Positions 1 through 40,247 of a DNA stretch of 40,947 nucleotides are shown here, piece by piece. Made by a program: the position numbers and the translations under genes. Where the stretch lies: positions 5,725 through 46,671 of the forward strand of contig JANWXU010000017.1 in assembly GCA_025057395.1 (NCBI GenBank), written 5' to 3'. Origin of the DNA: Bacteroidia bacterium (GTDB taxonomy: Bacteria > Bacteroidota > Bacteroidia > J057 > JANWXU01). How positions within the stretch are numbered: position 1 is the first letter of the stretch; the number at the start of each line of letters is the position of its first letter. The notes below the pieces were generated by a model. That model was not told where the DNA came from. It was given only the letters and a program-made list of their open reading frames with translations, and made no database searches.

Positions 1-3000
1 CAAAATACCATTTTCATCATAAAAACGTAGCGTTGCTCCATTAGTAGAAGTAGAAACCGTAAAGGTAGTTCTGCCAGTACCGCAGCGCTGAACATTATTT
101 ACCACTGGCCTTGCAGGGGGCGCACTAACCGTTATACTAAAGGGCACCCTTGCAGAAGGCATGCAATTACCCTGCCTAGCTTCTAAATAAAATACAGAAC
201 TGGTAGTAATTAGTGGTGTTGTCAAGCTATAGGGGGGGGCTACAGCCTTATCTAAGGCAAAACCTCCGATAGGTTCCGCAAATAAACTCACTTCTGTACC
301 TGATGGTACAGATACTGTGAAGGTAAGACGTTGAGCAGCGCAGAGGGTAAAAGGACCCACTGGAGGAATACTTAGTGCTTGTGTTACGGTAATACTAAAG
401 GGTGTACGAGCACTACTACAAGCTCCGTTTTCTTGCTCTACATAGTAGGTAATATTAGTTACCACATTCAAACGAAGTTCATACGGATTTTGATTAACAG
501 TTTGAATAGGTACGCCGCCGCTTGGCTGGGTATAAAGCTTTACAACCGCGCCACTACTTACACCATTTATGGGCACCGTCACTATACCCGCACAAGTTTG
601 AATAGGCTCTATTTGTAAATTAGCAGGTCTATCAAAAATAGTTACCGAAACTTTTACTCTCGGGCTTTCACATTGCGTTAAAGTAGAGAAACTCGCTAAG
701 TAATAATTAGCACTTACAGCCACAAAAGGAATTAAGAGCTCATAAGGAGCAACATTATCAGTAGCTATAATGTTTCCCCCTTGGGGAACATCATATAAGC
801 GTACCTCTACATTAGGGGTAGCATTCATAGCAATAGAAAAACTAACACTTCCTGGCCCACAACGCTGTAAGTTCAGTGGAGAGCCGGGCATAGGTGGCGC
901 CTCCACAACATTTGCACTGACGGTAACTCTATCTCCTACACACATTCCATTTACCGGCTCTAATTGAAACTGAGTAGTAGTGAAAATAGTATAAGGCGGC
1001 GAAAGCTCAAAGGGCGGAGTAGCATCTATTTGAATAGGGCCAGCATTCCCACTTACATATAAACGAACTTCTGAAACATTACTTCCTTGGGCAGTAAAAG
1101 TTACTGTGCCTGGACTGCACCGGCTTACAGAATTGGCTGTAATTACCGGCTTAGACTGAACATTTACTACTACCATGCTCCTTCTTACTGATTCGCACTG
1201 CCCAATAGCGCTAGCAATATAAAAAGTGGTGGTAGTAGTAATTATTGGCGTAGTGAGGGAATAAGGGAAATCAGAATCCAAATCCAAAATAACTCCTTGA
1301 GCTGCCTGACTATATAAACGAACTTCCACATTATTTTGCGGTGTGGTTATAGTAAGAATAGCCGAGCCACTACCACAAATTACTGATACGTTTCCTACTG
1401 CCGGTGCTTGGGGAGGTTCAGTAACTAGAACCTGTACAGGCACTCTAGGACTACTACAACCTGTAGCTGTATTTTGACTTTCAATATAAAAAATAGTATG
1501 AGTTGTAAGTACAGGAGTGGGAAGTTCAAAAATGGGAGTATTATCAGTAGCAATAGGAGTGCCTCCAACAGCTGCATCAAACAAAGTAATTTGTGTACCT
1601 GCAGGAGTACTCATTTGCGCAACTATTGTAGCTATATTACCTGCACAAATAGGTGCTACTCTTGCCGTTGGACTTCCGGGTACAGCACTTACTTCAGCCA
1701 CCACCTCTACATTAGAACTCGAACACTGCATACCACGACTATAGGTTCGAATATAAAAAGTAGTAGTAGTAACTAAAAAGGGTGTCGATAATATAAAAGG
1801 CGGAGTAGCATCTACGCTTAATATGTTATTATTAATATCCAATAATTGTACTTCCGCTTCAGCACTACTTACTGTAAAATGTAGAGTACCTGCTCCGCAG
1901 CGAGATACTCTAGTAGTATTAGGAATAGGAACAGCAGGCGCATCATAAACTAATACTACTACCGCTGAACGAGTATTACTAGGACAGGTTATTGGTCCAC
2001 TTTCTAAATAAAAAGTAGTGTTTACGAGCACTGGAGGGGTTATTAAATTATAGGGGGGGGCTACAGCTGCTTGTATAAAATCTCCCCCCGATTCTTGCGT
2101 ATACATGCGCACTTCTGTACCATTCTCTACACTCATGGGAATGCTTAAAGTGAGCCTAGCCCCACGGCAAACAGTCTGCGTTCTTACAGTAGGAGGCGGG
2201 GGTGGCAAAAGTACTCTTGCTTCCACAGCAGTTCTAGGGCTACTACAATTTCCATTAAATGCTTCTACATAAAATAAAGTATGGGTACCAATGGGGGGAG
2301 AAGTTATTACCGAGATTCCATTACTAACACCGGCCGTAGCTACTGGCACCCCCTGCGTTGCGGTAGTAAATAGCCTCACTTGAGTCGCCTGTACCTGAGT
2401 CTGTACTGTAAAAGTTACACTTCCTACCCCACATCTCATTACGGGTTGCACCTGCGGATGAGTAAGAGTTACATCATAATGAATAATTACAGGCACTCGA
2501 TCACTTTCGCAGTTACTAAAAAAGCTAGCTACATAAAAAGTAGTGGTGGTAGTAATAATCGGAGTTCGTAAAAGGTAGGGCACATCCATAGAGCTTGAAA
2601 TAGGACTTCCACCCACAGGGTTTTCATACAAATAAAAACCTGTACCTTCGGGCCTACCCATTAGGGGAGTGAGTATAGCCACTGCGGAGCTACAAAGGGT
2701 AACGGAAGCCACCTTGGGTAAACCAGGTTTAGCACTCGGATTTAGCTGTACAAATACAGGGGTTCGACTAGTACTTGTACATCCTGTTTGAGTATTAATA
2801 GCCTCTACGTAAAAAGTAGTAGTAGTATTAATAGAGGGAGTATTCAAAACATAAGGAAAAGTAGTAGCCGAAGCAATAGGAGAGCCTCCCCGTGGAGTAA
2901 CATATAAGCGCATTTCCGTGCCAGCAGGTATGCCCATGTTGGCAGTTAGAGTTACGGACCCATTCTGGCATAGCAAAAATTGATCTTGTAACACTGAGGG

Positions 3001-6000
3001 AGCTGCTGGTGGTATAGCCATCTCTATAGCAATTTGTCCTCTATCGCCCTCACAACCCGAAACTACGTCCGCAGCGGCTACGTAGTAAGTAATCGAGCTT
3101 GAAATGTACTGAGAGAAAGTATAAGGTGCTGAAAAAGCAGTAGAAATAGGAACACCCCCTATTGGAGTAGAATACAAATACATTCGATTGCCACTAGGAG
3201 TGCCCATATGAGCAGTAAAGGTGAAAATGCCAGGACTACAAAGAATAATTTGCTGATTGGCAGGCCTACCTGGTAAAGAATTAAAGCTAACTTCCACCTT
3301 AGTACGAGGGCTGGTACAACCTGTAGAAGGATCGCGAGCTTCTAAGTAGTAAGTACCATTAGCTAAAGGATTAGGCGGATTAATTTCATAGGGATAAGTA
3401 GCATCACTTCCTAAAACAGTTCCACCTACAGGTAAAGCATATAGCAATACAATTGTCCCGCTAGGAATATTAGCACTAAAAGTGGCAGTTATAGTAGCAG
3501 GAATACCACTGCAACGAATTACATTACTAGCTTGAGGAGCAGGTAGCGGCGGCTGCAAAATAACATTTACTACCGCTCGTTCACTTTCGCACCCACTAGT
3601 AACATCAATGCTACTAATGTAATACAAAGTAGAAGTAGCATTGAAGGGAGTTTGTAATACAGCATTGGTAGAAGTACTACGTGCAAAAGGCACTGTTGCT
3701 ACAGGAGTTTCATATAGCCTTAATTCAGTACCTAAGGGTTGTACCATAGCCGCTGTAACAAAAGCATGACCTGCCTGGCAAATTGTTACATCTCTAGCTA
3801 TTGGTTTACCTGGACGTTTTAGCATTTTTATTTGTATGGGTGCTCGCCCACTCTTACAGCCGCTTGCTAAAAGCACGTGTTCGGCATATAAAGTAGTGTC
3901 TCTATTCAAATTAGAAATGCGATAGTTGCAACTACGATGGCAATCACTTAAAGTAACTATAGGAGCACCCGCTGTAGAAACAGTATAAAGCTGGATGGAT
4001 TCACCTGGTTGGGCAGTTATGGAAAAAGAAAAATCAGCGGGCCCACAGAAATTATAACTAAGCGGACCCGGCTCTGAGGGGGTAGGTAAAATCTTAACTA
4101 CTACTGCAGTCCTTTGAGATTCACAACCCAATTCCGCTATACGACTAGCTAAGTAATAAGTAGTAGTGGTAGTAGACTCAAGGGTATATTCAAAGGGAGG
4201 CACATTATCTACTTGTAAGGGATCTCCACCCGTAGGAAATTGATATAAAGCAATAACATTACCTGCAGGCTGCCCCATTGTGGCTGTAATAGTTACAGCA
4301 CCTGCTCCGCATCGCTCCCAAACTTGATGGGTAACCTGCGGCGCAGCTGGTAAACTATATACTACCACCCTTAAAGGCAAACGTACACTTTCACAAAATT
4401 CATTATAAGTAGCTAAATAAAAAGTAGTGGTCGTGGTAACAGGAATATCAGTGAATTCGTAAGGACCTTGGGGCAAATGAGCTAAAGGAACACCCCCACT
4501 AGGAACAGTATACAAGCGCATGCCTACTTGCTGGGGTTGAACTAAAGTTGCTGTTATGGTAATATTACCCGCACCACAGCGAGTAGGAGCGTTTGCCTGA
4601 GGACGCGCTGGCGTTGTACCCAATTGCAACCAAACTGGACGACGGGTAGCAGAAATACAGCCTGTTTGGGTATTGACCGCTTCTACGTAGTAAAAATTAC
4701 TTGCTACCACATTATTAATAGGTAACTGGAACGGAGGAGTATCATCTTCTGCAATAGGAATACCCCCTACTGGCGAGCCATAAACTCGAACTTTCATAAA
4801 AGCAGGGTTAAAAAAGCTAACAGATAAAGTAGTGGAATTACGGCTACATAATACTATGGTGTCTGGAGTAGTAGGCAAAGGGGGCAAAGGATGAATAGTA
4901 GCCACCACAGGAATTCTCCGACTCTCACACTCCTTAGCTTCATTAAAAACAGAGGCGTAAAAAGTTGTGGTAGTAGTAATGTTATTAAGAACTAAAAAGT
5001 AGGGACTTACTCCTGTACGAGTTAAGTAACCTGTTGCTGCAGGAGAAGGATAAAGCCGAATTTCATTACCTGGTAAATCACCCATTTGGGCTGTAAAAGT
5101 TACAGCTCCAGCACCACATCTTTCTACATTTCCTATAATAGGCGGACTCACTTGATTAGGCTGTATAATCACAGGGGTTTTTGCACTTTCACAATTTCCA
5201 TCAAAGGCTGTCGCATAGTAAGTAACAGGCCTTGTAATACCTGTAACACTAAAGTACCCCGGCACAGTAAGTGCCTCCCACAAGGGCTCAGAACTACTAG
5301 ATTGGGTATACAAACGAAAAGCTTGCCCTGGTGGATTGCCAGGCAACACAGTAATATTAGCAGTATCGCTATTACAAATATGTATTCTTTGTATTATAGG
5401 CCTTCCTGGCAGTGGAATAATAGTACCCACAAAATCTTTACGAGCTTCACATCTAGTTTCTGTGTAGGCTACTTCCACTACATAGCTCGTAGTAGTAGTA
5501 ATGCTAGGTGTAGTGAATATAGCAGGTAGTTGAGTAGTAGTTTGAATAGGAGCATTAAAGCCTGGCCATAAATACAGTCGCACTTCGGTGTCTGGAGTTG
5601 GGTTAGTAACAGTAACAGTTACAGTTACAACGCCAGGACCGCAGCGAGAAGCACTGACAGGATTTAGACTAAACACAGGCACCGGGCGAACAATTGCCGA
5701 AGCCTGTGTTCGCTGCTTGCTTTCACATCCCGTTTGAGGATTATAAGCAGTAAAAAAGTAAGTAGCTGTTTGAGTGACATTGGCAGTATAAGTATAAGCA
5801 GGAATATTATCAGTATGAATAAATTGAATACTTTCTGGCAGAGTATAAACCCTCAACACATTGCCCGGTGCAATCATAGTAGCAGTAAAAGTAACGGGTG
5901 TACTACCATTACCACAGGCCAAAACATTTTCTACTACTGGAGGAGTTACTGTTTCTATTCTAGCTACAATAGGTACTCTAGCAGAAGAACAATTTGAATT

Positions 6001-6780
6001 ATTATATCCTGCCTCAATATAAAAAGTGGTATGGGTAGAAATTTCTGGAGTTCGAAGAATGTATGGCTGGGTAGAGTCTACTGCTACCGGTTCACCACCC
6101 GAAGAAACAGTATAAAGGCGAGCTACTGCTCCAGCAGGCTGATTCATCAGAACAGAAAAACTAAAACTACCTGGTTCACAAGCGCTTAAGTTTTGGGCAC
6201 TGGGAACCGCAGGACGTAAACGAGCAATAGCTGTTACAGGCACTCTTGGTTCATTGCTTACACAATTACGATTAGCATCATAAGTTTCAATATAAAAAGT
6301 AGTAGTAGTGTTATTCTGAATTGTTGCTTGTAATAAATAATTCGGACCGTTAGAGGAAGTAGAAATAGGCATTCCCCCATATGGAGTCGAATAAAGTCTT
6401 AATTCTGTTCCTGGAACAATTCCCATACGCGCTGTAAAAGTAATAAGACCGCTAGTACCACAAGTTTCCACTTGCGAGCCTGTAGGAATGACTGGAGATG
6501 GCCCTGCTTGCGGATAGGCAATAACAGGTGTTCTTGTACTTGTACAACCATTCGAAGTAGCACTAGCTAAATAATAAGTAGTAGTGACTCCCACACTTGG
6601 TGCTTGAATTTCATAGGGTGGTGAATTTTTGATGGCAAAAGGCGTTCCTCCTGTAGGAGTAGTATACAGCCGAATTTCTGAACCCGCAGGATTATTCATT
6701 AGCGCAGTAAAAACAGGATTATGAGTACCACAGACATTCATAGCTGTAGGTGCAGCTGGAGCAGTTATAATTTGCACATT
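1..6780 (-). repeat. At least 25 tandem CHU_C-type Ig-like repeats of about 89 aa
   Basis: The segment encoding a TTT.YY/TTTFYIE strand recurs about every 267 bases (near 6565, 6290, 6018, 5750, 5475, 5211, 4955 and so on down to 187). Each unit carries RLYT.P.GG.PI, a TTTTYY strand, then GC.S.RTPV.V. This matches the pattern of the CHU_C-associated Ig-like domains seen in T9SS cargo proteins. The array continues past the left edge. Confidence 0.82.
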
Positions 6781-9700
6781 TACAGTATCTTTAATTGTAG
6801 GACAACCAGGAGCAACGGCTTCTACAATATAATCTCCTGCGGCAGGTAATAGCGCATTAGGCAGTTCAGGATTTTGTAGCGTAGAACTAAAACCATTAGG
6901 TCCTGACCAGTATAGCGTAGTACCTGGCTTAGCAGTAGCAGTTAAATTCAACTGTTCGCCTACACAAAGAGGACTATTGCTCATGGGAGAAGGCGGCAAT
7001 GGTGGCTCACTAATAATTACATTCGTTGTATCATAAGTAGTGCCGCAGCCCGGAACAGTTACTGTCACTACATAAGTACCAGTGTGATCCGTAGTAGGAC
7101 TAGGAATTACAGGATTACGAAGAGTAGAAGAAAATTGATTAGGTCCTACCCATTCATAAGTAGCGTCAGGATGTAAGTCAGTGCTTAAAAATAAGGTTTG
7201 GGGCTGATTAAGGCACAAAGGACCATTATTTGTAGGGTTAGGTATTGCTGGTGCATATACCTTCACTTGCGTAGTAGCTAAAATAGGATCACATCCTGGT
7301 ACTACTACGGTAATTGTATAAACACCATTCGCTGCAGTAGTTACTCCGCCAATTTTAGGGTAAAGTAAAGTAGAATTAAAACCATTAGGACCCGTCCATT
7401 GATAAGTGGCGCCTGGAGAAGGTACAGCATTAAAACTTAAATCATTACCTACACAAACCGGACCAGAATTAGTAGGTGCCGGAAAAAGTGGGGGATTTAC
7501 TACCTGTACATCAAAAGAGCCAGTAACGGGAGCACAGGCAGGTACCGAAACAGTCACAGAATAAGTACCCGAATGCGCAGTAGTAGCATTAGGAATACTG
7601 GGGTTTTGCAAAGTAGAACTGAAGTTATTAGGACCTGTCCAACTATAAGTAGCACCCGGCGTAGTTACGGCCTGCAAAAGAATAGTACCATTTTGGCACA
7701 TGATAGCGGTTCCACTCGGATTAGGAGGATTAGGCGGCGCAAATATTTGAACTGTAGTTGTAGCCGAAATAGGATCACATTGCGGAACAGTAACAGTAAT
7801 AGAATATACACCTGCATTAGCTACCGATACATTTGCAATGTTTGGGTTTTGAAGAGTAGAGGTAAAGCCATTAGGTCCTGTCCATTGGTAGGTAGCGTTA
7901 GGCGAAGCATTAGCACTTAAATTTAGTACCATACCTTCGCAAAGAGGACCATTGTTTTTGGGATCAGGGAAAATAGCAATATCATTAACAATAACATTTA
8001 CTTGCCCCGTAACCGGCGCACAACCTGGCACAGTAACCACTACTTGATAAGTACCTGCATTGGCAGTACTTACTTGATGGATAGTAGGGTTACGAAGGGT
8101 TGAACTAAAAAAGTTAGGGCCCGACCAAGAATAGGTAGCATTAGGCGATAAAATAGCATCCAATTGTAGGGTTTGCCCTAAACATAATGGAGAATTGCTT
8201 GTGGGATTAGGCGGAGAAGGAGGCAGATTTACTTCTACTGTTGTAGAAGACTTAACGGGCGCACAAAAAGGTACGGTCACTGTAATTTCATAGATACCTG
8301 CATTAGCAGGAGTAGCATTAGCAATAATAGGATTTTGCAAAGTAGAGCTAAAAGCATTAGGACCTGTCCAAGAATAACTAGCCCCAGGAGTACCATTAGC
8401 AGTAAGCATAATGGGATCGCCTGCACAGACGGGTGAATTGCTAGTTACAGCAGGATTAACCGCCACATCATGGATAATTACTGTAGTTTGGGCAGTAACG
8501 GGTGCACACCCTGGAACTGTCACGGTTACAGAATAAGTACCCGCATGACTCAAATTGACACCGTAAATAGTGGGATTTCGAAGCGTAGAAGAAAAATTAT
8601 TAGGTCCACTCCATGAGTAAGATGCACCTGGGGTAAAGGTAGCATCCAAATTTAGGGTCTGGTTTAAGCAGAGAGGACCATTATTTGTAGGGTTAGGTGG
8701 CAAAGGTGGATCATTTACTATAACAGTAGTTTGAGCCGTAATAGGGTTGCATTGCGGAACAGTAACAGTTAGAGTATAAACTCCAGAAGCTGCAGGCGTA
8801 GCTCCCCCAATGGTAGGAGTAAGCAGTGTAGAATTAAAACCATTAGGACCATTCCAATTATAAGAAGCTCCAGGCGAACCTGTGGCCGTTAAAGTAATAT
8901 TATCACCCGTACAAACAGGACTATTCGAAGAAGGATTGGGGAAAATAGGAATATCATGTACTACCACAGTAGTTTGTCCCGTAGCGGGAGGACAACCCGG
9001 AACTGTAACGGTTACGGAGTATGTTCCTGCTTCTAAAGTAGTAACTGCATTAATCGACGGATTTTGTAAAGTAGAAGTAAAGTTATTGGGTCCTGTCCAC
9101 TGGTAGGTAGCGCCAGGCGTACCTACTGCCATAAGATTCAACAATGCACCTGAGCATAAAGGCCCATTGTTACTAGGATTTGGCGGATTAGGAGGCGCAT
9201 TTACTGTAACTGTGGTAATTGCGGTAATAGGATTACATTGTGGAACAGTAACTGTAATAGAATAATCGCCAGAAGCAGCAAGCGTTACACCACCAATGGT
9301 AGGATTTTGTAGGGTAGAACTAAATCCATTAGGACCTACCCATAAATAAGAAGCTCCAGGAGAACCCGTAGCTGATAAATTCAAATTTCCTCCTACACAA
9401 ACTGGGGAATTAGACTGTGGAGCGGGAAAAACTGCAAAGTTATTAATAGTAACAGTAGTTTGGCCTGTTGCTGGTGGGCAGCCCGGTACTGTAACAGTTA
9501 CAGAATAAGTACCTGCATTAGAAGGATTTACTGCTGGTATGGAAGGATTAGGTAGAGTAGAATTAAAAGACCCTGGACCCGACCAGCTATACGTAGCCCC
9601 TGGAGTAGTAGCAACAGTAAGTTGCAAAGTGGCCCCTGCACACAAAGGACCATTATTCGTAGGGTTAGGAGGATTGGGGGGATTATAAATTTCCACATTA

Positions 9701-12462
9701 ATAGCAGCCGTTACAGGGTTACACTGTGGTACGCTTACCGCCACCACATAAGTTCCACTATAGGCAGTAGTAGCCCCCCCAATAGTGGGGTTTTGTAAAG
9801 TAGAAGAAAATCCATTAGGACCGGACCATAAATAAGTAGCGCCCGGTGTTGGCGTAATTTGCAAGTTTAAATTTTGCCCTGCGCAGATAGGAGAATTACT
9901 TTGTGGATTAGGAAAAACAGGAGTATTATTAATCTGTACCGTTGTTTGAGAATTTACGGGCGGACACCCCGGAACAGTAACAGTTAAAGAATAAGTGCCT
10001 CCATTATTAGGTCCTACAGCATGAATCGTAGGATTTTGCAAAGTAGAAGTAAACATATTAGGTCCTGTCCAGCTGTATGTAGCGCCGGGACCTGCATTGT
10101 TAGAAGTAAGTTGCAAGGTAGCGCCTGTACACAAAGGACCGTTATTACTTGCATTAGGGTTAGGTGGGTTATTTACTACTGCATATACAGTAGCAGAAAC
10201 AGGATTACAATGAGGAACACTAACTATAACTGTGTAAGCACCTGTAGCAGCGGTAGTAGCTCCACCAATGGTTGGGTTAGGTAAAGTAGAGCCAAAACCA
10301 TTAGGACCTGTCCATTGGTAAGTAGCATTAGGCGTAGTATTGATAGTAAAATTCAAATTTCCACCAGCACAAATAGGACTATTCACGGTAGGATTAGGAA
10401 ATACAGGAGTGCTTAGTATCTGAACTGTTGTTTGACTCGTAACCGGCGCACAACCTGGTACCGTTACAGTGACCGAATATGTACCTGCATTAGCAGCTGT
10501 TACGGCATACAATACAGGATTTTGAAGTGTGGAAGAAAAGGCATTAGGTCCTGTCCAGGAATAAGTAGCATTCGGCCCTGCATTAGGCGTAGCCAAATTA
10601 AGAGTAGCCCCCGTACAAAGCGGACCATTATTTGTAGCCGTTGCAGCAGGGGGATTACTGATAATTACATTCGTAGTTACCTGAACAGGATTACATCCTG
10701 GTACACTTACCGTTAGGGTATAAAGTCCGGCATCGGCAGCTGTCACATTAGTAAAAGTTGGATTAAGAAGATTAGAATTAAGACCACTAGGACCTACCCA
10801 TTGATAAGTAGCCCCGGGGGTAGCAGTAGCATTTAATACCAGGTTTTGATTAGCACAAAGAGGACCATTATTCGTAGGATTAGGAAAAATAGCAGGTCCT
10901 TTTACCGTAACAGTGGTAGTAGCAGTAACCGGATTGCAGCCTGGCACCGTAACAGTAAGAGTATATACCCCATCATTTGCTAGTGTAACAGGTTGAATAG
11001 TAGGGTTTAATAAAGTCGAAGTAAAACCATTAGGTCCAGACCAGGAATAAGTGGCATTCGGCCCTGCATTATTAGCCGTTAATTGAAGAGTACCTCCTAC
11101 ACAAAGCGGACCATTATTAGTGGGGTTAGGAACAGGTGGATTACTTACTGTAACATTATGAGTAGCACTAATAGGCTGGCACGGGGGCTTACTTACCGTA
11201 ATGGTGTATGTGCCAGAGGCAGCAGCAGTAACAGCCCCAATTGTAGGATTAGCAAGCGTAGAACTAAAACCATTGGGACCTATCCAACTATAAGTAGCAC
11301 CTGGAGTGGGAGTAATGGTAAACTGGAGAGTGGAACCTGCACAAAGAGGAGTATTACTAGTAGGTGCTGGAAAATTAGGTGTGGTAATCACTGAAACATG
11401 AGTAGTAGCAGTAACCGGGTTGCAGCCTGGAGCGGTTACTGTAACAGTATAGGTTCCAGCATTTAACTGAGTAGCTCCTTGAATAGTAGGATTTTGAACA
11501 TTAGATTGGAAATTATTAGGTCCATTCCAAGTGTATGTAGCTCCTTGTACCGGAGCCGCTGTTAGTAGTAAATTATCACCTGCACAAATAGGTCCATTAT
11601 TGCTAGGATTGATTACAGGACCAATTACTACTTGTACACTTCCTGTTACAGGAGGGCAAGGGGGCTTGGAAACTGTTATAGAATAAATACCCGCCCCGGC
11701 TGTTGTAATTTGAGAAATAGAAGGATTCTGCTGATTCGATACAAAGTTATTAGGACCTGTCCAAGAATAAGTAGCCCCCTGGGTACCTGTTGCCGTTAAG
11801 AAAAGAGTTCCTCCAGCACATACAGGACTATTACTTGTAGGAGCGGGAGGATTAGGCGGCGCAACCACCTGTACAGTAGTGGTAGCTGATACAGCGCCAC
11901 AGCCAGGCACATTTACTGTAACCGTATACGTACCACTATTAGCTAGGGTAGCAGAAGGAATCACAGGATTTTGATTACCCGAAGTAAAGCCATTAGGTCC
12001 TTGCCACGAGTAAGTAACTCCTTGGGCATTGGGCGCATTTACATTAAGGTTAATTTGCTGCCCTACGCAAACAGGTCCATTATTCGTAGGGTTAGGATTA
12101 GCGGGTGCGTTTACTTGCAAGGAAGAAGTCCACACAAAAGGAATAAAACAGCCTTGCTTAAAAGCAATAAAAACATACGTACCCGAATGGTTGGGCTGTG
12201 CATTATTAAGTACTGGATTTTGCCCTGTAAGAATTACAGGCCCAATCCAGGTAGCAATAATTATAGGGTCATTTAATATATTTTGAGCACTAAAATACAC
12301 TGTGCCCCCCTGGCAAACTGGACTTGGATTAATTAGAGGAATAAAAATAGGAGGAATACATAGTTGTGAGAATAACTTCTGATTGCTTATAAATATTAAA
12401 AATAAAAGAGCTAGTACTCTGGAGAAAAAATAAAGCTTATGAAGGAGTAGTCTTTTATTCAT
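1..12462 (-). CDS. Giant secreted Ig-like repeat protein (5' part; 3' end outside window)
   Basis: The reading frame starts at ATG 12462-12460 and runs to the left edge as 4154 codons; every line checked is free of in-frame stops and the repeats stay in phase. The first 32 or so residues form a signal peptide: basic MNKRLLLHK, a hydrophobic core, then KLFSQ, a typical Bacteroidota cleavage site. About 23 Ig-like repeats of about 81 residues follow (to about residue 1895), each with GP.C.G near its start, YSW.GPNGF in the middle and a PGC near its end. After them come at least 25 repeats of about 89 residues with RLYT.P.GG.P, TTT.YY and C.S.RTPV, which fit the CHU_C-associated Ig-like type. 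The gene lies 294 bp downstream of another giant gene on the same strand, beyond a terminator, so it probably has its own promoter, though no exact TAnnTTTG box was found. Inferred role: a cell-surface or secreted adhesin. The C-terminus, where a T9SS sorting domain would be expected, is not visible. Confidence 0.9.
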   Translation of the reverse strand, partial: MNKRLLLHKLYFFSRVLALLFLIFISNQKLFSQLCIPPIFIPLINPSPVCQGGTVYFSAQNILNDPIIIATWIGPVILTGQNPVLNNAQPNHSGTYVFIAFKQGCFIPFVWTSSLQVNAPANPNPTNNGPVCVGQQINLNVNAPNAQGVTYSWQGPNGFTSGNQNPVIPSATLANSGTYTVTVNVPGCGAVSATTTVQVVAPPNPPAPTSNSPVCAGGTLFLTATGTQGATYSWTGPNNFVSNQQNPSISQITTAGAGIYSITVSKPPCPPVTGSVQVVIGPVINPSNNGPICAGDNLLLTAAPVQGATYTWNGPNNFQSNVQNPTIQGATQLNAGTYTVTVTAPGCNPVTATTHVSVITTPNFPAPTSNTPLCAGSTLQFTITPTPGATYSWIGPNGFSSTLANPTIGAVTAAASGTYTITVSKPPCQPISATHNVTVSNPPVPNPTNNGPLCVGGTLQLTANNAGPNATYSWSGPNGFTSTLLNPTIQPVTLANDGVYTLTVTVPGCNPVTATTTVTVKGPAIFPNPTNNGPLCANQNLVLNATATPGATYQWVGPSGLNSNLLNPTFTNVTAADAGLYTLTVSVPGCNPVQVTTNVIISNPPAATATNNGPLCTGATLNLATPNAGPNATYSWTGPNAFSSTLQNPVLYAVTAANAGTYSVTVTVPGCAPVTSQTTVQILSTPVFPNPTVNSPICAGGNLNFTINTTPNATYQWTGPNGFGSTLPNPTIGGATTAATGAYTVIVSVPHCNPVSATVYAVVNNPPNPNASNNGPLCTGATLQLTSNNAGPGATYSWTGPNMFTSTLQNPTIHAVGPNNGGTYSLTVTVPGCPPVNSQTTVQINNTPVFPNPQSNSPICAGQNLNLQITPTPGATYLWSGPNGFSSTLQNPTIGGATTAYSGTYVVAVSVPQCNPVTAAINVEIYNPPNPPNPTNNGPLCAGATLQLTVATTPGATYSWSGPGSFNSTLPNPSIPAVNPSNAGTYSVTVTVPGCPPATGQTTVTINNFAVFPAPQSNSPVCVGGNLNLSATGSPGASYLWVGPNGFSSTLQNPTIGGVTLAASGDYSITVTVPQCNPITAITTVTVNAPPNPPNPSNNGPLCSGALLNLMAVGTPGATYQWTGPNNFTSTLQNPSINAVTTLEAGTYSVTVTVPGCPPATGQTTVVVHDIPIFPNPSSNSPVCTGDNITLTATGSPGASYNWNGPNGFNSTLLTPTIGGATPAASGVYTLTVTVPQCNPITAQTTVIVNDPPLPPNPTNNGPLCLNQTLNLDATFTPGASYSWSGPNNFSSTLRNPTIYGVNLSHAGTYSVTVTVPGCAPVTAQTTVIIHDVAVNPAVTSNSPVCAGDPIMLTANGTPGASYSWTGPNAFSSTLQNPIIANATPANAGIYEITVTVPFCAPVKSSTTVEVNLPPSPPNPTSNSPLCLGQTLQLDAILSPNATYSWSGPNFFSSTLRNPTIHQVSTANAGTYQVVVTVPGCAPVTGQVNVIVNDIAIFPDPKNNGPLCEGMVLNLSANASPNATYQWTGPNGFTSTLQNPNIANVSVANAGVYSITVTVPQCDPISATTTVQIFAPPNPPNPSGTAIMCQNGTILLQAVTTPGATYSWTGPNNFSSTLQNPSIPNATTAHSGTYSVTVSVPACAPVTGSFDVQVVNPPLFPAPTNSGPVCVGNDLSFNAVPSPGATYQWTGPNGFNSTLLYPKIGGVTTAANGVYTITVVVPGCDPILATTQVKVYAPAIPNPTNNGPLCLNQPQTLFLSTDLHPDATYEWVGPNQFSSTLRNPVIPSPTTDHTGTYVVTVTVPGCGTTYDTTNVIISEPPLPPSPMSNSPLCVGEQLNLTATAKPGTTLYWSGPNGFSSTLQNPELPNALLPAAGDYIVEAVAPGCPTIKDTVNVQIITAPAAPTAMNVCGTHNPVFTALMNNPAGSEIRLYTTPTGGTPFAIKNSPPYEIQAPSVGVTTTYYLASATSNGCTSTRTPVIAYPQAGPSPVIPTGSQVETCGTSGLITFTARMGIVPGTELRLYSTPYGGMPISTSSNGPNYLLQATIQNNTTTTFYIETYDANRNCVSNEPRVPVTAIARLRPAVPSAQNLSACEPGSFSFSVLMNQPAGAVARLYTVSSGGEPVAVDSTQPYILRTPEISTHTTFYIEAGYNNSNCSSARVPIVARIETVTPPVVENVLACGNGSTPVTFTATMIAPGNVLRVYTLPESIQFIHTDNIPAYTYTANVTQTATYFFTAYNPQTGCESKQRTQASAIVRPVPVFSLNPVSASRCGPGVVTVTVTVTNPTPDTEVRLYLWPGFNAPIQTTTQLPAIFTTPSITTTTSYVVEVAYTETRCEARKDFVGTIIPLPGRPIIQRIHICNSDTANITVLPGNPPGQAFRLYTQSSSSEPLWEALTVPGYFSVTGITRPVTYYATAFDGNCESAKTPVIIQPNQVSPPIIGNVERCGAGAVTFTAQMGDLPGNEIRLYPSPAATGYLTRTGVSPYFLVLNNITTTTTFYASVFNEAKECESRRIPVVATIHPLPPLPTTPDTIVLCSRNSTTLSVSFFNPAFMKVRVYGSPVGGIPIAEDDTPPFQLPINNVVASNFYYVEAVNTQTGCISATRRPVWLQLGTTPARPQANAPTRCGAGNITITATLVQPQQVGMRLYTVPSGGVPLAHLPQGPYEFTDIPVTTTTTFYLATYNEFCESVRLPLRVVVYSLPAAPQVTHQVWERCGAGAVTITATMGQPAGNVIALYQFPTGGDPLQVDNVPPFEYTLESTTTTTYYLASRIAELGCESQRTAVVVKILPTPSEPGPLSYNFCGPADFSFSITAQPGESIQLYTVSTAGAPIVTLSDCHRSCNYRISNLNRDTTLYAEHVLLASGCKSGRAPIQIKMLKRPGKPIARDVTICQAGHAFVTAAMVQPLGTELRLYETPVATVPFARSTSTNAVLQTPFNATSTLYYISSIDVTSGCESERAVVNVILQPPLPAPQASNVIRCSGIPATITATFSANIPSGTIVLLYALPVGGTVLGSDATYPYEINPPNPLANGTYYLEARDPSTGCTSPRTKVEVSFNSLPGRPANQQIILCSPGIFTFTAHMGTPSGNRMYLYSTPIGGVPISTAFSAPYTFSQYISSSITYYVAAADVVSGCEGDRGQIAIEMAIPPAAPSVLQDQFLLCQNGSVTLTANMGIPAGTEMRLYVTPRGGSPIASATTFPYVLNTPSINTTTTFYVEAINTQTGCTSTSRTPVFVQLNPSAKPGLPKVASVTLCSSAVAILTPLMGRPEGTGFYLYENPVGGSPISSSMDVPYLLRTPIITTTTTFYVASFFSNCESDRVPVIIHYDVTLTHPQVQPVMRCGVGSVTFTVQTQVQATQVRLFTTATQGVPVATAGVSNGISVITSPPIGTHTLFYVEAFNGNCSSPRTAVEARVLLPPPPPTVRTQTVCRGARLTLSIPMSVENGTEVRMYTQESGGDFIQAAVAPPYNLITPPVLVNTTFYLESGPITCPSNTRSAVVVLVYDAPAVPIPNTTRVSRCGAGTLHFTVSSAEAEVQLLDINNNILSVDATPPFILSTPFLVTTTTFYIRTYSRGMQCSSSNVEVVAEVSAVPGSPTARVAPICAGNIATIVAQMSTPAGTQITLFDAAVGGTPIATDNTPIFELPTPVLTTHTIFYIESQNTATGCSSPRVPVQVLVTEPPQAPAVGNVSVICGSGSAILTITTPQNNVEVRLYSQAAQGVILDLDSDFPYSLTTPIITTTTTFYIASAIGQCESVRRSMVVVNVQSKPVITANSVSRCSPGTVTFTAQGSNVSEVRLYVSGNAGPIQIDATPPFELSPPYTIFTTTQFQLEPVNGMCVGDRVTVSANVVEAPPMPGSPLNLQRCGPGSVSFSIAMNATPNVEVRLYDVPQGGNIIATDNVAPYELLIPFVAVSANYYLASFSTLTQCESPRVKVSVTIFDRPANLQIEPIQTCAGIVTVPINGVSSGAVVKLYTQPSGGVPIQTVNQNPYELRLNVVTNITYYVEQENGACSSARTPFSITVTQALSIPPVGPFTLCAAQRLTFTVSVPSGTEVSLFAEPIGGFALDKAVAPPYSLTTPLITTSSVFYLEARQGNCMPSARVPFSITVSAPPARPVVNNVQRCGTGRTTFTVSTSTNGATLRFYDENGIL
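6780..12330 (-). repeat. About 23 tandem Ig-like repeats of about 81 aa
   Basis: The motif for N.GP.C.G recurs roughly every 243 bases, for example near 12070, 11820, 11585, 11100, 10615, 10130, 9645, 9155, 8670, 7940, 7460 and 6965. Each unit then reads ATYSW.GPNGF.S..QNP.I, SGTYTVTV and a PGC. The period is a multiple of three and DNA identity between units is only moderate, so this is an old protein-level array and not a recent DNA amplification. Confidence 0.85.
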
Positions 12463-35966: not shown

Positions 35967-36815
35967 ATGATATCTAGTAGCATAAACGAGAATGATATAG
36001 AAGTTGAGTTGGAAGAGCTCAACCAATTGAGCCAAGCTATCCTAACCAAATACGGATATGACTTTACTAACTACGCGCAATCTTCCTTCAAGCGAAGGAT
36101 AATTATGGTTCTAAAAAAAAATAGTATTAAAAGTGTTGGTCTTCTCATTCAAAAAATTGTACAAGATCCTAAGTTTTTTGAACAATTTGTTACAGACATA
36201 ACAGTAAATACGACAGAGCTATTCCGAGATCCTTCTTTTTTTCGAGTAGTAAGGGAGGAGCTTTTGCCTATTCTAAGTAACCGTCCTGAATTTAATATTT
36301 GGCATGCCGCTTGCTCAACGGGAGAAGAAGTAATATCGATGGCAATCTTATTAAAAGAAGAGGGGCTATGGGAAAAAGCTAAAATATATGCTACCGACAT
36401 TAATACAGCTGTGCTTAAAAAAGCAGCAGAAGCACGATATCCTCTTAGAAATTGGGAATTATTTAAACAAAACTATTCAAATACAAACCCTAAGGGAAAA
36501 CTAGAAGATTATTGTGAAATAAAAGATAATGAAATTCAATTTGATAAAGATTTAATTAAAAACGTTAGATTCAAGCAACACGATTTGGCGGTAGACCAGC
36601 ATTTTTTCAAGTTTGATTTTATTCTTTGTCGCAATGTAATGATTTATTTTAATCAAAAACTACAGAATCGGGTGTTTGAGCTTCTACATAATAGCCTATT
36701 CTTGGGAGGTTATTTAGCTTTAGGGGCTAAAGAGTCTTTAATATGGTGTAAAATTGCAGATAAATTTGCTGCTTTCAACGAAAACGAGAAAATATATAAG
36801 AAGATCAAATTATAA
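35967..36815 (+). CDS. cheR: CheR-type protein-glutamate O-methyltransferase
   Basis: A 282-residue protein that by family would transfer methyl groups from S-adenosylmethionine to glutamates of chemoreceptors in the cytoplasm. An N-terminal helical segment (about 10-80) contains YGYDFTNY and a basic FKRRI stretch. The catalytic part has NTTELFRDPSFF, the SAM-binding HAACSTGEEV, ATDIN and FDFILCRNVMIYF, all family hallmarks. The length is normal. ATG 35967 gives the full N-terminal domain, and no Shine-Dalgarno sequence is obvious, as is usual in this phylum. The cheB start is 15 bases after the stop, so the two are almost certainly cotranscribed. No chemoreceptor, CheA or CheW gene is in the window, so the substrate is unknown; it could be receptors encoded elsewhere or a non-chemotaxis sensor. 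Confidence 0.93.
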   Translation: MISSSINENDIEVELEELNQLSQAILTKYGYDFTNYAQSSFKRRIIMVLKKNSIKSVGLLIQKIVQDPKFFEQFVTDITVNTTELFRDPSFFRVVREELLPILSNRPEFNIWHAACSTGEEVISMAILLKEEGLWEKAKIYATDINTAVLKKAAEARYPLRNWELFKQNYSNTNPKGKLEDYCEIKDNEIQFDKDLIKNVRFKQHDLAVDQHFFKFDFILCRNVMIYFNQKLQNRVFELLHNSLFLGGYLALGAKESLIWCKIADKFAAFNENEKIYKKIKL

Positions 36816-36830
36816 GAAAGCTTATAGGAA

Positions 36831-37433
36831 ATGGCTAATGAAAAAAAAATGTGGGAAATCATTGTTATTGGGGGCTCAGCAGGAAGTTTTTCTGTAGTAA
36901 GTAAAATTTTAGAAAAAGTACCTCGCAACTTAAGTGTTCCTATTGTATTATGTTTGCATAGATTAAAGGACAAAAGGGAGGGCTTCAAAGAAGCGCTGGA
37001 AATTAAGTCTAATATTCCAGTTAGGGAGCCCTGTGATAAGGATAAAATAGAAAAGGGAGTAGCGTACTTAGCACCCTCCAACTATCACTTACTCATTGAA
37101 AGTAAAGAGATATTTGCTCTTTCTACAACTGAACTAGTTCAATATTCGCGTCCTTCGATAGACGTACTATTTGAGTCCGCTGCAGATACCTATAAAGGGG
37201 GTGTTCTAGGATTACTTCTCTCAGGTGCTAACCGCGATGGGGCTCTTGGAATGAGCAGGATTAAGTCTAAAGGAGGCTTTACTATCGTTCAAGATCCTAA
37301 AGATGCTAGTATGCCTACTATGCCTGCTGCAGCCATAGAAACAACAACTATCGACTTAGTTTTAGATACCTCTAATTTAGTCTCCTTTTTTGCTAATATT
37401 GAAAAAAATTTATTTATCCATGCTGCAAGTTAA
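36831..37433 (+). CDS. cheB: CheB-type methylesterase domain protein without receiver domain
   Basis: A 200-residue protein consisting only of the CheB methylesterase domain, which by family hydrolyses glutamyl methyl esters (and may deamidate glutamines) on chemoreceptors. The catalytic triad is visible: Ser16 in GGSAGS, His43 in LCLHR and Asp136 in SGANRDGALGM. The conserved YLAPSNYHL (about 79-87) and the region around QDP.DASMPTMPAAA are also present. The N-terminal response-regulator domain of classical CheB is absent, and no candidate for it lies upstream, so activity cannot be controlled by phosphorylation of the same chain. It lies 15 bp behind cheR and presumably opposes it. Stand-alone CheB domains of this kind are known in Bacteroidota. 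After it comes a gap of about 230 bp with the next promoter. Confidence 0.92.
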   Translation: MANEKKMWEIIVIGGSAGSFSVVSKILEKVPRNLSVPIVLCLHRLKDKREGFKEALEIKSNIPVREPCDKDKIEKGVAYLAPSNYHLLIESKEIFALSTTELVQYSRPSIDVLFESAADTYKGGVLGLLLSGANRDGALGMSRIKSKGGFTIVQDPKDASMPTMPAAAIETTTIDLVLDTSNLVSFFANIEKNLFIHAAS

Positions 37434-37523: not shown

Positions 37524-37667
37524 CTGTGTTTAAGTACGTAGAGTGCAATCTGCGCCCTGCATCCGCCAAAATGCAAAGTTATTAATTTTTAATGTACCAT
37601 GGAAAAAAGTAGTAAAAGGAGTAAAGGTAGCGTTTGAAAAAATTGAAATAAAGCAAATTCGCATTTG

Positions 37668-38267
37668 ATGATGATTATGAGTACAAGCCAGCCTACAGAA
37701 ACAGAAAAAAAAGAAGGCCCTTTGGCATTTAGCTATGAATGCTATAAGGATATGCTGGACAATAATATTATATTTGCCTATCGAGGTATAGTTACCTCTG
37801 ATTTAGTAACCAATGTGCTTGAAATAATGGAAGAAAGATTAGAGGAGGAGGGACAAAGCAAAAAAATTTCAAAAAAAGTATTTAACGTAATGGTTGAATG
37901 CCTCACAAACGTGTATGTAGATGAAGATAAGCTATTCAAGGAAGGATATGATCCCTCAGCATTGTTGTTGGTTGCTAAGGGCTCTAATTCTTATAAGGTA
38001 ACTACAGGGAACTATATTCCTACCAAAGGCGTAAATAGTCTGAAGCTGATGATAGATCGAATCAATAGCATGGATAAAGAAGAACTCAAAACATATTACC
38101 AGGAAATACTTTGCATGGAAGAGCCAGATATGAACGGACTTACTAACTTAGCTATTATCGATCTGGCTAGAAAATCAAAAAATAAACTAACATATACCTT
38201 CAAGTATGAAAACAATAAATATACTTTTTTTACTTTAGAGTCGCAGATTTCAAAATCGGGAGTGTAA
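37668..38267 (+). CDS. SiaB-family protein kinase, first copy, altered nucleotide site
   Basis: A 199-residue cytoplasmic protein of the SiaB (DUF6272) family. In Pseudomonas aeruginosa SiaB phosphorylates SiaC. An N-terminal tail rich in Ser, Thr and Lys (1-18) is followed by the family core: NNIIFAYRG (32-40), KKVFNVMVECLTNVY (69-83, with Glu77 and Asn81 of the N-box) and the C-terminal strands ending in YTFFTLES. Unlike the second copy, the residues after the N-box read VDED instead of HHLD, and the glycine-rich loop reads NGLTNLAIIDLARKS (156-170), having lost the G..GLG spacing. Nucleotide binding may therefore be weak or absent. ATG 37668 was chosen; ATG 37677 and TTG 37665 are also possible. 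It is the first gene of the operon, with the SiaC partner 62 bp downstream. Confidence 0.85.
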   Translation: MMIMSTSQPTETEKKEGPLAFSYECYKDMLDNNIIFAYRGIVTSDLVTNVLEIMEERLEEEGQSKKISKKVFNVMVECLTNVYVDEDKLFKEGYDPSALLLVAKGSNSYKVTTGNYIPTKGVNSLKLMIDRINSMDKEELKTYYQEILCMEEPDMNGLTNLAIIDLARKSKNKLTYTFKYENNKYTFFTLESQISKSGV

Positions 38268-38329
38268 ATGGTATTTTCGTTTACTCATAATACATCTAAA
38301 ATAAATCTAAATTTAAATTACAAAGCAAT

Positions 38330-38716
38330 ATGCTCGAAGCATTAAAAATTGAACCAACTCATAAAACACCTAAAGTATATTTGGACCCTAAAGAAAATCA
38401 TTTCGAAGTAAGTGGGCGCTCTATTCCAGAAGATTCGGTAGGATTTTATAAAAGAATCCTCGACTGGATAGATGAATACGCCAACCAACCCAATCCTGAA
38501 ACGGAATTTAAATTCGAGCTAGAATACTTTAATACTAGCTCTTCTAAAAATATTTTAGAGCTTCTAAAAAAATTAGAAAAAATACATCTTGAAGGGAAAG
38601 GAAAAATTCACATTACCTGGTACTACGATGAAGATGATGAAGATATGGAAGAAACGGGGGAAGATTATAAAGCTTTATTAAATGTCCCCCTAGACTTAAT
38701 TATGAAAGTGTACTAG
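38330..38716 (+). CDS. SiaC-family regulatory phosphoprotein, first copy
   Basis: A 128-residue protein of the SiaC (DUF1987) family, small cytoplasmic proteins that are phosphorylated by SiaB and, when unphosphorylated, bind and activate the cyclase SiaD in Pseudomonas aeruginosa. Conserved parts are IEPT.KTPKV (7-16), GRSIPEDSVGFY (29-40), LDWIDEYA, LEYFNTSSSK (64-73) and an acidic stretch DEDDEDMEETGEDYKALL near the C-terminus. Thr69 in FNTSSSK is the likely phosphosite, by position equal to Thr68 of the Pseudomonas protein (from memory, not aligned). It is followed after 74 bp by the second SiaB. It differs from copy 2 mainly in surface positions and a slightly longer end. Confidence 0.9.
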   Translation: MLEALKIEPTHKTPKVYLDPKENHFEVSGRSIPEDSVGFYKRILDWIDEYANQPNPETEFKFELEYFNTSSSKNILELLKKLEKIHLEGKGKIHITWYYDEDDEDMEETGEDYKALLNVPLDLIMKVY

Positions 38717-38790
38717 ACATAAGTATAATTAACTGACCCTACTTATTTCTGTTTGTTAACCTAACTAATTAAATAATTCTGGCGGTGAGC

Positions 38791-39339
38791 ATGACGTATA
38801 GCTATTACAAAAACATGCAGGTAAACAATATTATATTTGTTTACCAGGGTGAGGTAACCGCAGAGTTAGTATCGTCCATTCTTCACATGATGGAAAATAA
38901 ACTAGATGGCGATGGTGAAGATAAAAAAATTAAGAAAAAAGTTTTTAATGTAATGGTAGAGTGTTTACAAAATGTTTATCACCATCTAGATACCTTAGAG
39001 GTAAGCGTGGACGATACAGAAGTAAATGATCGAACTGCACTCCTTATGATTGGTAAGGAGGAGAAAGACTACTACGTTATCACGGGTAATCATGTTCTTA
39101 ATGAACGAGTAGCTGCTTTACGTAGCCGTCTTGAAAAAGTGAATAGTTGTGATAAAAATGAACTAAAGAACCTGTACCAATCGATATTAAATGACGGGGA
39201 ATTATCAGAAAAAGGAACCGCAGGACTAGGCATGATTGATATAGCCCGAAAATCAGGGCAAAAACTAGGTTATGATTTTCACCCTGTATCAGATAAGTAT
39301 TCTTTTTTTAGTTTAGAAGCAAAAATTGCGCGTTATTAA
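38791..39339 (+). CDS. SiaB-family protein kinase, second copy
   Basis: A 182-residue SiaB (DUF6272) family protein with the elements expected of an active kinase of this GHKL-like fold. It has NNIIFVYQGEVT (12-23), VFNVMVECLQNVYHHLD (51-67, with Glu57, Asn61 and His64-His65), and KGTAGLGMIDIARKSG (141-156), the glycine-rich nucleotide loop. It ends with YSFFSLEAKI. By family it phosphorylates SiaC. ATG 38791 was chosen because it starts at the conserved YSYYK; GTG 38785 would add two residues. It shares KKVFNVMVECL and the overall layout with copy 1, so the two arose by duplication. The second SiaC follows after 45 bp. Confidence 0.9.
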   Translation: MTYSYYKNMQVNNIIFVYQGEVTAELVSSILHMMENKLDGDGEDKKIKKKVFNVMVECLQNVYHHLDTLEVSVDDTEVNDRTALLMIGKEEKDYYVITGNHVLNERVAALRSRLEKVNSCDKNELKNLYQSILNDGELSEKGTAGLGMIDIARKSGQKLGYDFHPVSDKYSFFSLEAKIARY

Positions 39340-39373
39340 TCCGTGATCCTTTTTTTATAATTATCAATAAATT

Positions 39374-39378
39374 GGAGG
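39374..39378 (+). promoter_or_regulatory. Strong Shine-Dalgarno sequence for the second SiaC
   Basis: GGAGG lies six bases before ATG 39385. This is unusual for Bacteroidota, and the other genes of the operon lack a comparable site. It may raise translation of this SiaC relative to its neighbours. Confidence 0.6.
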
Positions 39379-39384
39379 AAAAAA

Positions 39385-39759
39385 ATGAGATCACTAATTA
39401 TTGAACCAACGGCCAAGACCCCAAAAGTAATAATGAACTCTGATATTAATGTTTTTGAAATAGTGGGTAGGTCTATACCAGAAGATTCCGTTGGATTTTA
39501 CCGAAAGGTTCTGGATTGGGTAGATGAATATGCTAAAAATCCCAACGCGCACACCAACTTTAAATTTCAATTGGAGTATTTTAACACTAGCTCTTCGAAA
39601 TGCCTATTAGATTTATTTCGAAAGCTAGAGAAAATGTATAAAAATGGCCATGATGTAGTTATAACCTGGCATTATGATGCAGATGATGAAGACATGGAAG
39701 AAACAGGGGAAGATTACAAAGCACTTTTAGAGGTGCCATTCGAATTAGTATCAATATAA
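39385..39759 (+). CDS. SiaC-family regulatory phosphoprotein, second copy
   Basis: A 124-residue SiaC (DUF1987) family protein, clearly a paralogue of the copy at 38330-38716. The two share GRSIPEDSVGFY, LEYFNTSSSK and the acidic DDEDMEETGEDYKALL without change. Thr68 in FNTSSSK (62-72) is the likely phosphoacceptor for a SiaB kinase. Positions that differ, such as TKFNFQ versus EFKFE near 57-62 and the C-terminus, may set partner choice. It lies behind the intact SiaB copy and 23 bp before the membrane-anchored coiled-coil gene. Role inferred from the Pseudomonas system: a phosphorylation-controlled binding protein. No target cyclase is encoded in the window. Confidence 0.9.
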   Translation: MRSLIIEPTAKTPKVIMNSDINVFEIVGRSIPEDSVGFYRKVLDWVDEYAKNPNAHTNFKFQLEYFNTSSSKCLLDLFRKLEKMYKNGHDVVITWHYDADDEDMEETGEDYKALLEVPFELVSI

Positions 39760-39782: not shown

Positions 39783-40247
39783 ATGTCAAGGAGGGAGTCA
39801 GAAGCATTTCCTCATGAAACGGAAGTGCTTAGAGTAGCAAGAGAAACCGCCCAGAATCCTAACTTAACAATGGATGAAATACAGAAAGCGTTTAATACCC
39901 TATGTGATGAATATGAAAAGCTTTTAGAAGAAACCCGTTTTTTAACCAAAACGGCAGATAAGCTCGAGATGAAGCTTAACGCAGCTAACGAAAAGCTGAA
40001 AGCGGAAAAAAATTATTTCGCCACAGAGGCTGAAATAAATCGAGTAGAAAAAGAAAAAGCTCTACACAAGAATAAGCAACTATTTCAAGAAAAAACTGAA
40101 GCGGTTACAAGTGTAAATAAATTACAAACTACGCTCAGTATAATAATAGTTGTTCTACTGGTTTTGCTAATTACGCTAGGGTATTATGCATTTCACCCAC
40201 AAAAAATGATTCAAATTATGCAGCAGTTAGGTATCAGGGAGAATTAG
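39783..40247 (+). CDS. Membrane-anchored coiled-coil protein of the Sia operon
   Basis: A 154-residue protein of unknown function. Residues 27-36 (NLTMDEIQKA) precede a long helix with YEKLLEETRFLTKTADKLEMKLN (44-66 region), a pattern resembling helical stalks that sit before cyclase domains in other signalling proteins. The heptad-rich charged coiled coil continues to about 110. One transmembrane segment (about 117-137, SIIIVVLLVLLITLGYY) lies close to the C-terminus and leaves a 17-residue tail, so most of the protein should be cytoplasmic with a C-terminal anchor. There is no signal peptide and no GGDEF or other catalytic domain. It is the last gene of the operon, 23 bp behind the second SiaC. 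Inferred: a membrane docking site for SiaC or SiaB. It is also possible that it is a scaffold unrelated to cyclases. Confidence 0.75.
   Translation: MSRRESEAFPHETEVLRVARETAQNPNLTMDEIQKAFNTLCDEYEKLLEETRFLTKTADKLEMKLNAANEKLKAEKNYFATEAEINRVEKEKALHKNKQLFQEKTEAVTSVNKLQTTLSIIIVVLLVLLITLGYYAFHPQKMIQIMQQLGIREN

Follow-up and report, generated by a model that had tools for sequence, protein, structure and literature searches.

The window, a 40,947-nucleotide stretch of a Bacteroidia genome (assembly GCA_025057395.1; 4.08 Mb in 244 contigs), carries a tandem SiaB-SiaC-SiaB-SiaC locus. This is probably a SiaABC-type partner switch in which the SiaB-SiaC pair was duplicated once, and in which the first kinase copy, SiaB1, turned into a pseudokinase that is catalytically dead but selected, and that acts by binding. 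The first-pass annotation had read such a tandem in one stretch; ORFs and coordinates agree, placing the quartet at 37665–39759.

All four genes lie on the forward strand with intergenic gaps of 45–68 bp: SiaB1 (37665..38267, with ATG at 37668 or 37677), SiaC1 (38330..38716), SiaB2 (38785..39339) and SiaC2 (39385..39759). Both SiaBs match DUF6272 of Pfam (SiaB1 at 106 bits) and exceed the cut-off of 85 bits for the NCBIfam model SiaB_fam_kinase (NF038262), SiaB1 at 124.7 and SiaB2 at 175.3 bits. SiaC1 and SiaC2 match PF09345 at 143 and 147 bits (4e-42 and 3e-43; cut-off 24.5), and score 83.6 and 93.4 bits, below the cut-off of 150, with the equivalog model for Pseudomonas-type SiaC. On the same strand the quartet is preceded by genes for a CheR-type methyltransferase (35967..36815; PF01739, 5e-40) and a single-domain CheB methylesterase (36831..37433; PF01339, 6e-49), and followed by one for a coiled-coil protein with a C-terminal transmembrane segment (39783..40247). 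A pseudouridine synthase gene is on the strand opposite to the SiaB-SiaC locus. Beyond the quartet, one further SiaB and three further SiaCs are encoded in the genome; two of its SiaC genes, at G000:C11:15749-16099 and G000:C189:64935-65288, have no adjoining SiaB. Most of the window is occupied by two giant reverse-strand ORFs. One (1-12462, at least 4154 aa) has Ig-like CHU_C-associated repeats (20 stretches of Pfam Ig_7), and the other (12757-35652, 7631 aa) has, by eye, similar and fibronectin-like repeats. An Rfam search of the window gave no match, and promoter and terminator scans of it did no better than shuffles.

A first contig scan with the single protein as query gave no match. The quartet was found in 18 sampled Bacteroidia genomes, most of them metagenome-assembled: seven from the window's order, spanning five families, and 11 of family f50, the latter contributed by a class-wide sample of 395 genomes. 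Within the order, this arrangement is shared by six genomes besides the window's, with SiaB1 ∼1 kb 5′ of SiaB2. A phylum-wide sample of 395 genomes yielded no further quartet. SiaB1s were delimited by a clear score gap, all scoring at least 262 bits and everything else at most 216. Its recurrence across 18 genomes, including one assembled into a single contig, excludes both chance and a faulty assembly as its source. Retention is strict: every genome with this SiaB2 also has SiaB1 (18/18).

SiaB1 of the window keeps the N-box Glu and Asn and also TGN, has Asp in place of the N+4 His and GLTNLA in place of GxGLG, and bears an N-terminal extension of ∼17 residues relative to SiaB2. SiaB2 has all the nucleotide-site motifs (ECLQNVYHH, TGN, GTAGLG), invariant in the seven orthologues of the order. 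Earlier motif readings proved exact: ECLTNVYVDED with NGLTNLAIIDLARKS in SiaB1, its N-box Glu and Asn both present, ECLQNVYHHLD with KGTAGLGMIDIARKSG in SiaB2, and NTSSSK in both SiaC copies. Across the order's seven SiaB1s the N+4 residue is Asp or Glu and the loop reads GL[TS]xL[GA], its LG kept in six of the seven; G007 has ANLTKLG, and its N-box Asn is replaced by Gly. Losses are deeper in f50, where a 13-residue deletion takes out the N-box Asn and His in 11/11, TGN has become xGR and GxGLG reads like GGVPSIS. The third Gly of GxGLG is lost in all 18 SiaB1s.

These losses are concentrated at the nucleotide site. We compared 24 columns conserved in at least 80% of 146 canonical SiaBs, using Pseudomonas numbering. 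The SiaB1s keep most of the structural columns, together with the N-box Glu61 (18/18). At nucleotide-site columns, the N+4 His and G146 are kept in 0/18, N100 in 3/18, and N65 and G148 in 6/18 each. Membership of the canonical set was decided at five motif positions, N100 of the G1 region not among them; N100 is nonetheless invariant in that set, and is lost in 15 of the 18 SiaB1s. Glu61 of Pseudomonas SiaB is the predicted catalytic residue (PMC7647112), and the roles of the other residues are assigned by alignment. Since Pseudomonas SiaB has Tyr at N+4 and is active, loss of the N+4 His is by itself no proof of inactivity. Many invariant SiaB1 residues lie outside the ATP site, and the N-terminal helix and first strand, common to SiaB2, are strongly conserved. 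The AlphaFold2 model of SiaB1 (pLDDT 82.9) matches 6kko_A, the SiaB of a SiaB-SiaC complex, with Z 20.8 and rmsd 2.3 over 165 residues; the next structural matches are RsbW and SpoIIAB, at Z about 10–12.

The first-pass annotation had named as counter-evidence a lack of the GLG loop in many single-copy active SiaBs. Our survey found otherwise: of 170 SiaB domains, 18 of them SiaB1, the canonical motifs are kept in 146 of the remaining 152, ruling out motif loss as a common state among SiaBs. Nor is the SiaB1 clade an artefact of shared motif losses. In a tree of 71 SiaBs, SiaB1 forms one clade (support 100/100) that joins SiaB2 at 99/99; without the motif columns, support is 100/99 for SiaB1 and 96/95 for SiaB1 with SiaB2. 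The question whether copy 1 makes up a conserved clade with the same losses is thus answered positively, by alignment and by trees with and without motif columns. The SiaC tree mirrors the SiaB tree, with SiaC1 (99/92) and SiaC2 (96/96) as separate conserved lineages that group together at 100/95. These clades and the matching SiaC tree indicate a single duplication of the pair before the order and f50 lineages split, after which SiaB1 changed fast.

Order orthologues are 46–61% identical to the window copy for SiaB1 vs 76–87% for SiaB2, and within f50 the median dN is 0.24 for SiaB1 vs 0.036 for SiaB2. Though evolving several times faster than SiaB2, SiaB1 has dN far below dS (0.058 and 2.2 between G002 and G008), a rough comparison in that dS is near saturation. 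The ORF is intact in 18/18 genomes, in two divergent groups. With motif losses in 18/18, the Glu kept and dN far below dS, SiaB1 is best described as a putative maintained pseudokinase, not a decaying gene. That reading, one of two offered in the first-pass annotation, is well supported, both by the conserved clade and by the intact motifs of 146/152 other SiaB domains.

The phosphosite NTSSSK is kept in SiaC1 (NTSSSKNILE type) and SiaC2 (NTSSSKCLLD type) of every genome aligned. In Pseudomonas, unphosphorylated SiaC binds the stalk of SiaD, with SiaC T68 touching SiaD S82 and Q86 (PMC8457831). The SiaD stalk sequence (7e6g) is RLEKVARISDRYQQMMRDLN, and its RISDRYQ aligns with a motif of the coiled-coil protein, LTKTADKLE in the window and LTKISDKLE or LTRIADRNQ in relatives. 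In a stalk-motif scan of 481 ORFs, the best 12 matches were all coiled-coil proteins encoded downstream of SiaC2, with sequences such as EARTLTRIADRNQRRLDEMN; their scores were reached by at most about 2% of heptad-preserving shuffles. Those of G005, G007 and G010 were intermediate (5–10% of shuffles), and the window's own motif is poor and does not stand out. A phmmer search of the coiled-coil protein against PDB returned only unspecific coiled coils; through this short motif, which is what links it to SiaD, the protein is a candidate SiaC target. The f50 genomes have two coiled-coil genes in succession (L148:9032-9995), with the stalk-like motif only in the second.

The fullest operon, seen in f50 and G010, reads CheR-CheB-PP2C-SiaB1-SiaC1-SiaB2-SiaC2-coiled-coil membrane protein; f50 adds a PEBP-family gene before PP2C and a second coiled-coil gene, and for two f50 loci the available sequence, limited by the contig or by the stretch retrieved, stops short of CheR-CheB. 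The PP2C gene is directly 5′ of SiaB1 in G001, G010 and the f50 genomes; in G001 it is not immediately preceded by CheR-CheB. At the quartets of the window and G005, CheR-CheB is present and PP2C is missing, and G002, G007 and G008 have CheR-CheB-PP2C elsewhere, away from it. Given that linkage of CheR-CheB and PP2C varies in this way among relatives, the window locus represents a larger signalling operon in reduced form. It has no linked PP2C phosphatase gene, and searches of the window's genome and of G005 gave no full-length PP2C orthologue; there are 27 SpoIIE-family phosphatase matches in the former. Where the CheR-CheB-PP2C(GAF/PAS) trio stands away from the SiaB-SiaC quartet, it stays intact (L231, L232, L233).

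A second live/dead SiaB-SiaC tandem arose independently in family f12 (G025, G107, G198 and G139, at L234, L235, L236 and L237). As in the quartet, the order is SiaB-SiaC-SiaB-SiaC; one SiaB is without the N-box Asn/His and GxGLG: N65 is replaced by Ala, Thr or another residue, and the loop by a DLA or ELA sequence. Unlike in the quartet, the dead copy is the downstream one, and the phosphosite of the associated SiaCs carries Ser (NSTSAK, SSSSAK). In G198 a contig end cuts the upstream canonical SiaB. The f12 dead SiaBs form a clade of their own, and a single origin with SiaB1 was rejected when the two were forced together (AU test, p 2e-51). We lean, by a little, towards the view that coupling a live and a dead GHKL kinase to two copies of their SiaC target is a recurrent SiaC partner-switch design that arose at least twice within Bacteroidia, the dead kinase serving as a dedicated ATP-independent receptor or regulator of SiaC.

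Other SiaB arrangements were noted in passing. G071 (L238:637-2049) has one SiaB, with its N-box Asn replaced by Ser (ESLESIMRQ), adjoining two SiaCs. G004, of the window's order, encodes a SiaB-SiaC fusion as a 319-aa ORF (L050:5603-6562, reverse strand). In several Bacteroidia genomes, ORFs or arrays hold two to four successive DUF6272 domains (L189, L159, L162, L203), with spacing between some domains too tight for a SiaC gene.

For the quartet we propose that SiaB2 would be the sole kinase, phosphorylating Thr/Ser of NTSSSK in SiaC2 and probably also in SiaC1. The GAF/PAS-PP2C phosphatase, which adjoins SiaB1 in relatives and was not found linked in the window, would remove the phosphate. 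Unphosphorylated SiaC would then bind the membrane protein encoded downstream, at its coiled-coil stalk, by analogy with SiaC and the SiaD stalk in Pseudomonas. Since it has the SiaB fold and N-box Glu without a full Mg/ATP site, SiaB1 would most likely act by binding: it may hold unphosphorylated SiaC1, which it would be unable to modify, and thereby set the amount of free SiaC, SiaB2 or phosphatase. SiaC1 is the most likely partner, rather than SiaB2 or the phosphatase, as SiaB1 has kept Glu61 and the fold and is co-inherited with a SiaC1 whose phosphosite is intact. The computation shows family membership, gene order, the motif losses, a single SiaB1 clade under purifying constraint and the second independent origin; from these we infer that SiaB1 is inactive, what it binds and that the coiled-coil protein acts as effector. 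That a dead SiaB1 has been kept in 18 related genomes, and that the same layout evolved twice, suggests a probable regulatory function specific to SiaB1.

Pseudokinases often tune a live kinase as its dead subunit, and SiaB1 might likewise be an allosteric partner of SiaB2 in a heterodimer, with SiaC1 as a specific input docking on the dead subunit. Pseudomonas SiaB is reported to form a dimer (PMC7278518), the conserved N-terminal helix and first strand are common to the two copies, and SiaB1 is strictly co-retained with SiaB2. The same evidence fits simple SiaC binding equally well, however, and SiaB1 carries an N-terminal extension that SiaB2 lacks; we regard the heterodimer as a serious but less likely rival. 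Somewhat more doubtful is a two-tier switch, like RsbS-RsbT-RsbU over RsbV-RsbW, in which SiaB1 freed from SiaC1 would bind and activate PP2C, which would dephosphorylate SiaC2. The gene order PP2C-SiaB1-SiaC1-SiaB2-SiaC2 in f50, G001 and G010 suits it, as does the inventory of two kinase-like proteins, two antagonist-like proteins and one phosphatase, and the PP2C gene neighbouring SiaB1 keeps an RsbT-RsbU-like role for SiaB1 in view. RsbT is, however, an active kinase, as are both Rsb kinases, and the phosphatase is unlinked in G002, G007 and G008 and has no full-length copy that we could find in the window's genome or G005.

The other reading offered in the first-pass annotation was a kinase with changed nucleotide use, making SiaB1-SiaC1 and SiaB2-SiaC2 two parallel channels. 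For SiaB1 of the window's order we consider this improbable. The N-box Glu is kept in all SiaB1s, the Asn in six of seven of the order and the SiaC1 phosphosite in all, and Pseudomonas SiaB tolerates Tyr at N+4; such a two-channel switch would be consistent with these. Against it, the Gly of GxGLG is lost in 18/18, and Asn and His are deleted in 11 orthologues, with Asn changed to Gly in one of the order, so a function common to the SiaB1 clade cannot need them. Altered nucleotide use is thus unlikely across the whole clade, and what stands of that earlier reading is possible residual, weak nucleotide binding by the window copy, given its N-box Glu, Asn and TGN and the LG of the loop in six of the order's seven SiaB1s. 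The notion that SiaB1 is a decaying duplicate without function draws on the faster evolution of the protein; intact ORFs in two divergent groups, dN far below dS, the many invariant residues outside the ATP site and the parallel origin of a live/dead tandem elsewhere make it very improbable, and we reject it on conservation and dN/dS. We retain a pseudokinase that binds SiaC1 as the preferred reading of SiaB1.

Pseudokinases are well studied among eukaryotic-type kinases; to our knowledge they have rarely been reported for the small GHKL kinases that work in bacterial partner switches. We found no account in the open-licence literature of a SiaB-family pseudokinase or of a SiaBC locus in tandem. 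The novelty would lie in known families in a new arrangement, with a predicted loss-of-catalysis paralogue. Two lineages offer a live paralogue beside a dead one as a control, making the role of the GHKL fold without ATP chemistry directly testable. The SiaD-stalk-like stretch in the coiled-coil protein suggests what SiaC's target may be where no diguanylate cyclase is at the locus.

The closest known system is SiaABCD of Pseudomonas aeruginosa, comprising SiaA (PP2C), SiaB (kinase), SiaC (phosphoprotein) and SiaD (diguanylate cyclase). Shared with it are SiaB- and SiaC-family genes side by side, the NTSS phosphosite, a PP2C upstream in some relatives of the window, and a SiaD-stalk-like motif in the coiled-coil protein downstream of SiaC. 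The window locus differs in having two SiaB-SiaC pairs, one SiaB being without an intact ATP site. It has no GGDEF protein, and a coiled-coil membrane protein without GGDEF follows SiaC2; CheR-CheB is linked, and the PP2C belongs to the GAF/PAS type and is unlinked in the window. The RsbRSTUVW and SpoIIAA-AB switches combine a GHKL kinase, a STAS antagonist and PP2C. They differ in that SiaC matches PF09345, not STAS, in Pfam, and that no sigma factor is at the locus; they resemble it in the fold of the SiaB1 model, close to SpoIIAB and RsbW, in kinase-antagonist pairs with PP2C, and in a two-layer layout.
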